Source: Acidobacteriota bacterium (GTDB lineage: Bacteria > Acidobacteriota > Blastocatellia > Pyrinomonadales > Pyrinomonadaceae). Taken from it: a stretch of 64,000 bases of DNA. This document shows positions 57,896 to 63,526 of the stretch, piece by piece. The notes under the pieces were generated by a model. It made no database searches. It was not told where the DNA came from and worked only from the letters and a program-made list of their open reading frames with translations. Within the stretch, counting starts at the first letter, position 1. The number at the start of each line of letters is the position of its first letter. The DNA is taken from the NCBI GenBank assembly GCA_025463125.1, contig JAOAPX010000073.1, positions 1 to 64,000 on the forward strand, given 5' to 3'. A program made the position numbers and the translations under genes.

Positions 57896-59212
<1,317 letters not shown>

Positions 59213-59641: not shown

Positions 59642-60085
59642 ATGATGCAGGATCACGAATGGCAAAACGGCGAATACACGATCAGCACCGAGCGCGAGCG
59701 GCTGCAAATCGATGTTATTTTTAAATATTTAACCGGGGAATCTTACTGGGCGCGCGAGCGTTCCTACGAACAAACAGTAACGGCGATAAAAAATTCCTTG
59801 CCTTTTGGCGTGTATAAAGGCGAAAATTTAATCGGGTTTGCGCGCGTCGTTACCGATTACGCGACTTTCGCTTATCTCGGCGACGTTTTTATTTTAGAAG
59901 CGCATCGAGGAAAAGGCTTGAGCAAATGGCTGATGGAAACGATCGTCAATCATCCAGAGCTGCAAGGCTTGAGGCGCTGGGTTTTAGCGACCAGAGACGC
60001 GCACGGGCTTTACGAAAAATACGAATTTTCCGCTTTGAGATTTCCCGAACGGTGGATGGAGAAAACCGCTCCGAACGCGTATTAA
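59642..60085 (+). CDS. GNAT family N-acetyltransferase
   Basis: Acetyl-CoA-dependent transferase of 147 aa. The GNAT motif A is visible as DVFILEAHRGKGLSKWLMETIV (Q/RxxGxG/A-type: HRGKGLS), preceded by VVTDYATFAYLGD and followed by the C-terminal YEKYEF strand. Acceptor unknown. It starts just after the pseudogene (4 nt), with two adjacent ATGs at 59642 and 59645. Confidence 0.9.
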   Translation: MMQDHEWQNGEYTISTERERLQIDVIFKYLTGESYWARERSYEQTVTAIKNSLPFGVYKGENLIGFARVVTDYATFAYLGDVFILEAHRGKGLSKWLMETIVNHPELQGLRRWVLATRDAHGLYEKYEFSALRFPERWMEKTAPNAY

Positions 60086-60201: not shown

Positions 60202-61809
60202 ATGTACACGATTAAATTTGGAAATTGGACTTTCGGCATTGGAAGCAATATGAACAACGGACACAAAAGCAAACGACCGCTGGCGCTTATCATTCTGGAC
60301 GGGTGGGGAATTTCGCCGCATAAAGAAGGCAATGCGATAGCTTTGGCGCACACGCCTTATTACGATGAAATCTGCGCGAAATATCCGCGAACGAATTTGT
60401 CGGCAGCCGGTTTGCGCGTCGGTTTAACGCCGGATTCGGCGGGAAACCCGGAAGTCGGGCATTTGAATCTCGGCGCGGGACGCATCGTTCAAACCGATGT
60501 TTCGCGCATCTCCGAAGCCTTAAGGTCCGGCGATTTTTTTGAAAATCAAGCGTTGAAAAAAGCGTTTGCCAAAGCCGCCGCGAATAATTCTTCGGTTCAT
60601 TTAATCGGCTTGTTAAGCGACGGCGACGCGCATTCGAAACCGGAAAACCTGTTCGCGCTTTTGCGTATGGCAAAGGCGGAAGGTTTAAGAGACGTTTTCG
60701 TTCACCCGATTTTAGACGGGCGCGACGTTTCGCCGCGAACCGCCGATATTTACGCCGAAGCTCTGGAAATCAAAATGGCTGACATCGGCGTCGGGCAGAT
60801 CGCGACGCTTTGCGGGCGATATTACGCGATGGATTCAAACCAGAACTGGGAACGCACGGCGCGGGCTTACACGATGCTCGTACACGCCGAAGGCGAGCGC
60901 GCTTTCGATGCCGTAACGGCGATTCGCAGCTCGTTTCTGCGCGGCATCGCCGATGAATTTATCGCGCCGATCGTGCTCGAAAAAGAACCGGGCAAACCGG
61001 TCGCGACGATAAAAAACGGCGACGTCGTGATTTATTTCAATCATCGCGCCGACGGAATGCGGCAAATCGTCAAATCGCTTTCCATTCCCGATTCAAACGA
61101 TTTTGCTGTTTCCGGCAAACCGCGTATCGAAACGGTTTGCCTGATCGAATACGACCGCGGCTATAATCTTCCGGTCGCGTTTCTGCCCGAATCGGAAAAC
61201 AATGTGCTGGCGCAGGTTTTCGCCGAATACGGCGTTTTGAATTGCCGTCTGACCGAAAGCGAGCGATACCCGCATCTAACTTACTTTTTCAACGGCGGCG
61301 TGGAAAACGAAAATTTGTGCGAGCAGCGCGTTCTGGTTCAATCACCGAAAAACGCCGCTTACGAATTGCAGCCCGAAATGAGCAGTTTCAAGGTGACGGA
61401 CAAGTTTCTGCGCAGTCTCGAAGCGGGCGAAAATGACGTTTTTATAATGAATCTGCCCGCGTCCGATCTGGTCGCGCAAACCGGGAACCTGGAAAAAACC
61501 ATCGAATCGGTTCAGTTTGTCGATACGTGTCTCGGGGGGATTTTAGAAAAGATTCGCGAGATGAAAGGCGTCGCGATGATCACTTCGTCGCACGGCGGCT
61601 GCGAAGAAATGGCTGACCTTCTGACCGGCGAGCCGAATTCGCAGCCGACGGCTAATCCGGTTCCGTTTCATTTTATCGACGAGCAGGCAAACGGGCTGCT
61701 GCTTCGAGACAACGGGGCGCTCGAAGACGTTGCGCCGACGATACTCGGAATTTTAGGCATCGAAAAGCCCGCTGAAATGACGGGCAGAGATTTGCGTTTG
61801 AATAATTAA
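60202..61809 (+). CDS. iPGM-like protein with altered active site
   Basis: Whole-length homologue of 2,3-bisphosphoglycerate-independent phosphoglycerate mutase (535 aa; alternative ATG at 60250, MNNGHKSKRPLALIILDGWG, fits the family start better). The fold markers ILDGWG, EVGHLNLGAGR, DGRDVSPRTADI and ANPVPFHF are present. Many catalytic residues are not: the phosphoserine position NSEVGH reads NPEVGH; the RxxR in the substrate loop is HRADGM; the Lys in TEKY is Arg (SERYPH); PDMVGHT reads SDLVAQT; ADHGN reads SSHGG; TAHTTNPVP reads QPTANPVP. Normal mutase activity is therefore unlikely without other residues. Eno is upstream, but another PGM must exist. Confidence 0.85.
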   Translation: MYTIKFGNWTFGIGSNMNNGHKSKRPLALIILDGWGISPHKEGNAIALAHTPYYDEICAKYPRTNLSAAGLRVGLTPDSAGNPEVGHLNLGAGRIVQTDVSRISEALRSGDFFENQALKKAFAKAAANNSSVHLIGLLSDGDAHSKPENLFALLRMAKAEGLRDVFVHPILDGRDVSPRTADIYAEALEIKMADIGVGQIATLCGRYYAMDSNQNWERTARAYTMLVHAEGERAFDAVTAIRSSFLRGIADEFIAPIVLEKEPGKPVATIKNGDVVIYFNHRADGMRQIVKSLSIPDSNDFAVSGKPRIETVCLIEYDRGYNLPVAFLPESENNVLAQVFAEYGVLNCRLTESERYPHLTYFFNGGVENENLCEQRVLVQSPKNAAYELQPEMSSFKVTDKFLRSLEAGENDVFIMNLPASDLVAQTGNLEKTIESVQFVDTCLGGILEKIREMKGVAMITSSHGGCEEMADLLTGEPNSQPTANPVPFHFIDEQANGLLLRDNGALEDVAPTILGILGIEKPAEMTGRDLRLNN

Positions 61810-61834: not shown

Positions 61835-63526
61835 ATGTTGTTTTACTCCGGAATTGTTAATCGTTTCTCCCTGTTTTTTCTTTTAATATTGATTTTTACG
61901 GGTTGTTCTTCCGATCAGCCGTCGGCGAATATGCAGAATGCGGCGGCTGTGCTGCCCGACGCCGACGAATCTTCGTTTGAGGTTCCCGAGTCGAATATTA
62001 ATCTCGCCAATCCGCTCGTCATTTCCAATAAACCGGAAGACGTGGCGACGTGTGAAAAGATAAACCGAACCATCGAAGAAAGCCCGTACGCCAATTCGCG
62101 CTGGGGCGTTTTCGCCGTCAGTTTAACCGACGGTCGCGTCGTTTGCTCGCTCGACGGTCGAAAGCTTTTCAATCCCGCTTCGATTCAAAAAACCTTGACG
62201 GCAATCGTCGCGCTCGATAAATTGGGCGCCGATTATCGCTGGAAAACTTCCGTCTATGTTAAAAATCAAATCGAAGCCGACGGAACCTTAAACGGCGATT
62301 TGACGCTGTACGGCGAAGGCGCTCCGGATTTCGGCGCGGCGCAGCTGGAAAATCTCGCTTCGCAATTGTATGACAAAGGCTTGCGGCGCGTAACCGGAAA
62401 CGTCGTCGGCGACGACAGTTATTTTCGCGGCGACGCGATCGGCGACGGCTGGACGTGGAACGAGCTGCAATGGTATTACGGCGCGGAAGCATCGGCGCTT
62501 TCTTTTAACGATAACCAGGCTTTTATTAATGTCGAAAACGGCGCGGGGCGCGCGACGACCGATTATCTACAGGTGACGGTCGGAAATCCGACGCCGATTT
62601 CGAGCGCCGGTAATAAAGAAGACAATTACGAAGCGGGCGGCATAAAGCGCGGGCTCGACGACAATAATTTTTACGTTTGGGGCAATGTGAAAAGCTTCGG
62701 CGCGCGCGTTTCGGTTCATAACCCGGCGGGACTCGTTGCGAAAAACCTTAAAGAAGCGCTGGAGAAAAAGGGAATTGCGATCGGCGGGCAAGCCGTTTCG
62801 CGCGATTGGAAATCCGCCGATGCGCTCGACCCGGCAAGCCAGCAGATGCTTGCTTCGGTTGAGAGCGAGCCGCTCGTCGAAGTCGTCAAAAAGATGAATA
62901 AACATTCGGTCAATCTTTACGCCGAACTGCTTTTGCGAACCATCGGCAAGCGTTTCAGCGATTCGGTTCCGACCAACATACAGCTGCCGCAAAACGTGCG
63001 CGGCGACGACATCGCGGGCGCGGCGGTTATGAAAAAATGGCTTTTGGAACACAAGATCGCCGCCGATGAAGTGCAGATTTCCGACGGCTCCGGTTTGTCG
63101 CGACTCGATTTCGTCACGCCCGAAGCTTTCGCCAAAGCTTTTATCGCCGTGGCGCAAAGCCCGTATTCAAAAGCTTTCGCCGATTCGCTGCCGATCGCCG
63201 CGACCGATGGAACCATGGGCGGGCGTTTAGGCAGGTTGAAAGGAAAAGTTATCGCCAAAACCGGCACGATCACGTATGTTAATTCGCTCGCCGGTTACGC
63301 GGCGACGGGCAGCGGCGAGGTGCTCGCTTTTGCCGTTATCAGCAATAACAACACGCGCAAAAACGGCGTGACGAACGTGATCGACAAAGTCGTGACGATT
63401 CTCGCGGGCGCGGACGAAAAGCAAAAAGGCGAAAACGGGCAAACGGAAAGTAGCGAGCCGAAACCTTCAAACACTTCAAACTCGAATCAGCCGAACGGTT
63501 TTTACGAGCAGAATCTTAGAAAGTGA
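61835..63526 (+). CDS. dacB: D-alanyl-D-alanine carboxypeptidase/endopeptidase (PBP4, S13) lipoprotein
   Basis: Class C penicillin-binding protein of 563 aa. The signal FLLILIFTGC gives a lipobox (FTGC). Catalytic motifs are SIQKTL (SxxK, about residue 117), KHSVNLYAE (SxN, about 360) and AKTGTITYVNSLAGY (KTG, about 475). The insertion between SxxK and SxN is the S13-type domain, and GDDSYFRGDAIGDGWTWNE is typical of it. The C-terminal tail is Asn/Ser-rich. It releases terminal D-Ala and cuts DAP-D-Ala cross-links. The AGTGAAA repeat begins inside its last codon. Confidence 0.94.
   Translation: MLFYSGIVNRFSLFFLLILIFTGCSSDQPSANMQNAAAVLPDADESSFEVPESNINLANPLVISNKPEDVATCEKINRTIEESPYANSRWGVFAVSLTDGRVVCSLDGRKLFNPASIQKTLTAIVALDKLGADYRWKTSVYVKNQIEADGTLNGDLTLYGEGAPDFGAAQLENLASQLYDKGLRRVTGNVVGDDSYFRGDAIGDGWTWNELQWYYGAEASALSFNDNQAFINVENGAGRATTDYLQVTVGNPTPISSAGNKEDNYEAGGIKRGLDDNNFYVWGNVKSFGARVSVHNPAGLVAKNLKEALEKKGIAIGGQAVSRDWKSADALDPASQQMLASVESEPLVEVVKKMNKHSVNLYAELLLRTIGKRFSDSVPTNIQLPQNVRGDDIAGAAVMKKWLLEHKIAADEVQISDGSGLSRLDFVTPEAFAKAFIAVAQSPYSKAFADSLPIAATDGTMGGRLGRLKGKVIAKTGTITYVNSLAGYAATGSGEVLAFAVISNNNTRKNGVTNVIDKVVTILAGADEKQKGENGQTESSEPKPSNTSNSNQPNGFYEQNLRK

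Follow-up and report, generated by a model that had tools for sequence, protein, structure and literature searches.

A probable iPGM-family pseudoenzyme retained beside an intact dPGM in an Acidobacteriota bacterium

Non-orthologous displacement between the phosphoglycerate mutases iPGM and dPGM, and redundancy of the two, are already known (Foster et al. 2010, PMC2964296); the same work leaves open whether bacteria possessing both mutases represent an early stage of displacement. In cyanobacteria, iPGM is regulated by PirC, the partner being predicted in the interdomain cleft, and His462 is a metal ligand of the enzyme (PMC12077085). Pseudoenzymes are a known kind of protein; in the open-licence literature, none was found for iPGM or for any other bacterial member of the alkaline phosphatase superfamily, and a putative iPGM pseudoenzyme is thus what would be new in the locus described here.

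The window, i.e. the whole stretch of 64,000 nucleotides analyzed from an Acidobacteriota contig, contains an iPGM-family ORF at positions 60202-61809 of the forward strand, whose frame is open throughout and encodes 535 amino acids. The protein matches both PF06415 and PF01676, as expected for a full-length iPGM, and scores 536 bits against TIGR01307 (E 6e-161; model cut-off 331); its nearest PDB sequence is 1ejj, with 42% identity (phmmer, E 4e-134). The AlphaFold model has a pLDDT of 91.4 and a pTM of 0.85, residues 1-22 forming a low-confidence N-terminal extension; its best structural match in the PDB is again 1ejj (TM 0.85/0.89), and the third is 1o99, the S62A mutant of the Geobacillus stearothermophilus enzyme (Gst). 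With a score above the curated cut-off and the two-domain fold, the protein is an iPGM homolog, and the view of the earlier note that it belongs to this family from end to end is borne out.

The gene is preceded on the same strand by the enolase gene eno (57923-59212, +) and by a GNAT-like acetyltransferase gene (59642-60085, +); a D-Ala-D-Ala carboxypeptidase/PBP4-like gene (61835-63526, +) starts 25 bases downstream and is also a neighbor of iPGM in several genomes with an active enzyme. The order eno - GNAT - iPGM is ancestral and is found beside active and eroded iPGMs alike, indicating vertical inheritance; thus, the window gene is an orthologous, vertically inherited iPGM.

The roles of the iPGM active-site residues are well established in the family. 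Fifteen of them were scored, with Gst numbering, using a phmmer alignment to Gst and two MAFFT alignments, and seven are replaced in the window protein (S62P, R191S, R264G, K336R, H407Q, D444S and H462P), all three alignments agreeing at these sites. The position of the phosphorylated nucleophile Ser62 is occupied by P83 (60448-60450, +); those of the substrate-binding Arg191 and Arg264 by S212 (60835-60837, +) and G285 (61054-61056, +); that of the active-site Lys336 by R355 (61264-61266, +). Among the metal ligands, His407 corresponds to Q426 (61477-61479, +), Asp444 to S463 (61588-61590, +), followed by the retained His445 as H464, and His462 to P482 (61645-61647, +). The two-metal site (D12, S62, D403, H407, D444, H445, H462) has therefore four of its seven residues replaced and is not that of a functional enzyme, retaining only D12, D403 and H445; the substrate site is also incomplete, since R191, R264 and K336 are changed and H123, R153, D154, R185 and R261 are kept. 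A phosphorylatable residue is missing at position 62, which is Pro in the window and Ala, Pro or Thr in 34 of the 39 eroded sequences considered below. The list of changed and kept residues given in the earlier note is therefore correct, and the three alignments place neither the Ser nor the lost ligands at their expected sites; its statement that most catalytic residues are replaced is right as to the replacements and too strong as to their number, which is about half, with R261, R185, D403 and H445 also kept in addition to those it had listed.

Misalignment was rejected as a cause of this pattern, since the phmmer and MAFFT alignments concur, the motifs are collinear and the sites are without gaps. 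The full set of 15 is present in 29 canonical iPGMs of this class, in 23 from other phyla and in 11 low-scoring ones of the same phylum, which speaks against chance divergence; the last 11, with 15/15 in spite of their poor scores, led to rejection of general divergence. A genome of the same genus (G001) shares the losses, with A, V, G, R, Q, S and P at the seven sites, so that an artefact of sequencing or binning can be excluded.

The source genome (G000) is 94% complete. A second iPGM or an archaeal-type aPGM was rejected, as PF06415 gives a single match, the window iPGM itself, and a TIGR00306 search for aPGM gives none. Conversely, the check for another gpm gene proposed in the earlier note revealed a full-length dPGM on a separate contig (G000:C122:1592-2326), with intact catalytic motifs (RHGES, KRAIRT, NERHYG and AHGNS).

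The distribution of the two mutases was surveyed in 119 genomes of the family, and the 15 sites were tabulated for 84 iPGMs extracted from the class. Within the family, the iPGMs of genomes with dPGM group in a single clade. Every examined iPGM from a dPGM-lacking genome outside the dPGM-bearing clade has 15/15 residues; all iPGMs with any loss fall in that clade, except one from another family (G057), and within the family losses are found only inside it. An intact dPGM is thus present in the genomes with an eroded iPGM and absent where iPGM is active, with the exceptions of G129, genus g17, G041 and G149; both mutases are intact in g17 and in the latter two genomes, which belong to another family. 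The iPGMs of the clade have an SH-aLRT support of 100 and a long stem (0.4 changes per column), and active iPGMs have shorter branches than they do; the sampled dPGMs of the clade form one group (support 93/91), outside which the G129 dPGM falls, and the tree places a single acquisition of dPGM in the family. The clade members scored as dPGM-negative (G017, G062 and G063) are draft genomes in 400-500 contigs, and in G017 a gpmA piece lies at a contig end.

Retention of the 15 residues decreases by steps among the genera, from 15 in g17 to 14 in g27, 12 in g6 (9 in G072), 12 in g18 (7 in G061), 11 in g24 and 10 in g23; lower values are found in g1, which includes the window and G001 (8), g21 (9 and 6), g14 (8) and g9 (5-8). 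The gene is absent altogether from some genomes of the clade (G009, G094, G086, G090, G006, G066 and G070). The nested position of g17 inside the clade indicates that the common ancestor had dPGM together with a complete active site, and that the losses came later and separately in several lineages. The order of loss also varies: G023 retains S62 and R191, G024 retains R191, R264 and K336, the first losses in g6 are R264 and H462, and g17 has none. Dollo reconstruction gives 16 losses of Ser62, an inflated count because scattered tips still have Ser. The idea that the residues had all changed together, in a coordinated way, is therefore not borne out by the tree and the residue table, which display stepwise loss in different orders.

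Some genomes deserve separate mention. In G057 (L157, family f6), erosion has a separate onset, with D12S (LILSGFG) and H445N (SDNGN) and the rest intact; its dPGM lies directly upstream of iPGM and groups with that of G056 (family f2), not with other f6 dPGMs. G129 (L161, L168), a draft with 6% contamination, has a canonical 15/15 iPGM and a dPGM outside the group of the clade, due either to contamination or to a separate transfer. The dPGM matches in G038, G042, G046, G050 and G054 (family f3) are split at profile positions 122 and 146, with about 25 amino acids missing; a comparable lack of about 25 amino acids in the monomeric dPGM of the S. pombe type is mentioned in PMC2964296. Finally, circularly permuted iPGMs (L186, L187, L188, L189, L190, L191, L192, L193 and L185) occur in several families of the phylum (genomes G199, G222, G277, G270, G305, G235, G171, G304 and G297), as one ORF of about 530-660 amino acids that runs from Gst 214-219 to 508 and then from Gst 2-6 to 210-215, the new termini falling within the transferase domain. 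Their catalytic motifs are mostly kept (DGWG, GNSEAGH, TADHGT, TGHTKNP), with DGRD changed to GRRGE; no paper on a circularly permuted iPGM was found.

The neighborhoods of eroded loci were searched for a new partner gene, and none pointing to a specific function was found. In g9 loci (e.g. L120, L144, L125), a thymidine kinase gene usually follows the eroded iPGM after 39-92 bases on the same strand, and the two likely form an operon; tdk is near 30/39 eroded loci and 0/29 canonical ones, many of the latter having short flanks. In g18 the eroded iPGM is often found behind clpB-grpE.

Pairwise whole-gene dN/dS (NG86) is 0.04-0.14 for eroded copies and 0.07-0.23 for active ones; for the pair formed by the source genome and G001 it is 0.138 (NG86) or 0.082 (YN00). 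No stop occurs in 53 ORFs of the clade (503-543 amino acids, about 10 genera), while neutral simulation predicts some 6 stops at K=0.14, rising to about 14 at K=0.44. The fold is preserved also in the model of the most eroded protein, from G100, which keeps 5/15 residues (AlphaFold pLDDT 88.4, pTM 0.79). Neither frame disruption nor a dN/dS near 1, the marks of a pseudogene, is thus observed; catalytic residues have been lost while the fold and purifying selection persist, as in a pseudoenzyme, and these data, together with the intact second mutase, support the earlier note in its preference for a pseudoenzyme over random decay.

Comparison of the phosphatase domain (A) with the transferase, substrate-binding domain (B), which in the window protein spans residues 98-329 approximately (Gst 77-310; 60493-61188, +), revealed a reversal of constraint. 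In canonical iPGMs of the family, mean identity is 0.75 for A and 0.67 for B, with B above A in 10/210 pairs; the 39 eroded proteins average 0.49 for A and 0.62 for B, with B above A in 732/741 pairs, the pairs being not independent in either set. In close pairs, dN/dS is lower in B than in A in 6/7 eroded cases and lower in A than in B in 6/6 canonical ones. Among 97 universally invariant columns, retention in the eroded set is 0.45 at the active site and 0.72 for the rest (p=0.005), and is lower in the phosphatase than in the transferase domain (p=0.02). The best-retained active-site residues are R185 (1.00, never lost), H123, D154 and H445 (0.95 each), and D12 and R261 (0.92 each); the least retained are H407 and H462 (0.00), R191 (0.03), K336, R264 and D444 (0.05 each) and S62 (0.13). 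In the eroded clade, the stronger constraint thus lies no longer on the catalytic phosphatase domain but on the transferase domain, which has become the better conserved half of the protein and where some residues are fixed at 95-100%.

Eight residues (I149, T159, D161, T203, F224, L225, H260 and A401) set the whole clade, including g17, apart from all active iPGMs examined. Seven of these eight substitutions are in the transferase domain and are earlier than the catalytic losses; residues 149, 260 and 401 adjoin DGRD, R261 and D403, respectively. In the window protein, H281 (Gst F260; 61042-61044, +) is a new residue, fixed clade-wide, beside the retained Arg261, and A420 (Gst N401; 61459-61461, +) replaces a universally conserved Asn, a change fixed throughout the clade before loss of the metal ligands. 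Since these substitutions are shared with g17, remodelling of the pocket preceded loss of the metal site.

Having lost its nucleophile and metal ligands, the window protein is very likely devoid of mutase activity. The explanation that probably accounts best for the data is that it is a vertically inherited iPGM that ceased to be a mutase after displacement by dPGM and is kept as a pseudoenzyme for a non-catalytic role of the transferase domain. The comparison of genomes shows that dPGM entered the common ancestor of the clade and remained intact in its members, so that the glycolytic mutase step no longer depended on iPGM; iPGM subsequently lost the nucleophile, the metal ligands and the substrate arginines stepwise, in orders that differ among lineages, and the eroded gene has stayed under strong purifying selection, stronger on the transferase than on the former catalytic domain. 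The eroded iPGM was thus probably re-used for a task without catalysis, which would rest chiefly on the transferase domain; H123, D154, R185 and R261 persist in its pocket, next to the newly acquired, clade-fixed I149, D161 and H260. The protein would most likely act as a sensor, regulator or scaffold that binds a phosphoglycerate-like ligand, a protein partner or both; conservation suggests that the pocket perhaps binds a ligand. A tentative and more specific proposal, which may well be wrong, is that a single-copy iPGM ortholog became a non-catalytic regulator binding a metabolite or a partner, its pocket having been remodelled in the clade ancestor at about the arrival of dPGM and its catalytic domain having turned into a scaffold, and that it would report glycolytic flux beside enolase. 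The presence of dPGM alone does not force loss, since both enzymes are intact in G041, G149 and g17, as they are in other bacteria, E. coli among them; as dPGM was gained only once, the association amounts to one clade and one partial case (G057). The absence of the gene from several members (G009, G094, G006 and others) indicates that any new role is dispensable.

A different activity had also been considered in the earlier note. In such a case, the remodelled pocket, with D12 and H445 and, in the window, D403, would catalyze another reaction on a phosphorylated ligand, with a single metal or without metal. Retention of D12 (92%), H445 (95%), H123, D154, R185 and R261 is consistent with such an enzyme, as are replacements that are consistent rather than random (K336R in 92%, H407E in most of g9, Ala or Pro at 62) and the coexistence in g17 of all 15 residues with the remodelled pocket of the clade. 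However, the nucleophile is missing in the 34 eroded sequences mentioned above, no eroded sequence retains H407 or H462 and hardly any retains D444, which precludes the two-metal chemistry typical of the superfamily, and no co-varying set of replacement ligands was seen; a new activity is therefore possible in early members of the clade and improbable after loss of the nucleophile and most metal ligands, and as an explanation of the window protein it is unlikely. Decay, i.e. an iPGM redundant since the arrival of dPGM and drifting to loss, its intact frame being only a lag, is more doubtful still: redundancy is real, the orders of loss differ, the gene is gone in some genomes and the branches of the clade are long compared with those of active iPGMs, but dN/dS is like that of active copies, drift would have given many stops across the ten or so genera, transferase-domain residues are nearly fixed, and the most eroded member has a confidently predicted fold.

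Persistence of phosphoglycerate mutase activity, with a wrong alignment or with other residues substituting for the lost ones, would agree with the score above the TIGR01307 cut-off and with the predicted iPGM fold; it is very improbable in view of the concordant, gap-free and collinear alignments at the seven sites and of the complete active site in every iPGM from dPGM-lacking genomes outside the clade. That metagenome binning, assembly or contamination produced the pattern is hardly credible: most genomes are drafts and G129, with its contamination, carries dPGM and a canonical iPGM, but the pattern is repeated in about 50 genomes, including the near-complete G092 (2 contigs), G060 (3 contigs) and G102 (7 contigs), and the eno-GNAT-iPGM synteny is shared.

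Under the pseudoenzyme explanation, the family lays out displacement from genomes without dPGM, through those with both mutases intact, partly eroded and fully eroded iPGM, to those from which the gene is gone, and would offer a natural series for the study of the change from enzyme to pseudoenzyme. The outcome is unexpected, in that a displaced enzyme of central metabolism appears to be retained as a strongly constrained inactive protein. The mutase annotation given by TIGR01307 is probably wrong for these genomes, as the window protein, being above the cut-off, would be called an active mutase.

The closest described protein is Gst iPGM (GpmI/GpmM; 1ejj/1o98), which the window protein resembles in its full-length homology, two-domain fold, eno-linked locus and partial substrate pocket, and from which it differs in the lack of Ser62 and in the replacement of four of the seven metal-site residues, K336, R191 and R264; the S62A mutant structure 1o99 mimics one of these changes. 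As in displacement of the type described by Foster et al., dPGM takes the same step and redundancy precedes loss of one gene; here, however, a single family shows all the intermediates, and in most cases the displaced gene, far from being deleted, persists under selection after loss of its catalytic residues. The cyanobacterial PirC-regulated iPGM is a regulatory node based on protein-protein contact, as the window protein may be, but it is active and regulated, whereas the enzyme of the window type would be inactive. Finally, pseudoenzymes and moonlighting glycolytic enzymes share with the window protein the loss of catalytic residues with retention of fold and purifying selection; unlike pseudoenzymes generally, it is here the single-copy ortholog itself, and not a paralog, that appears to have become inactive.
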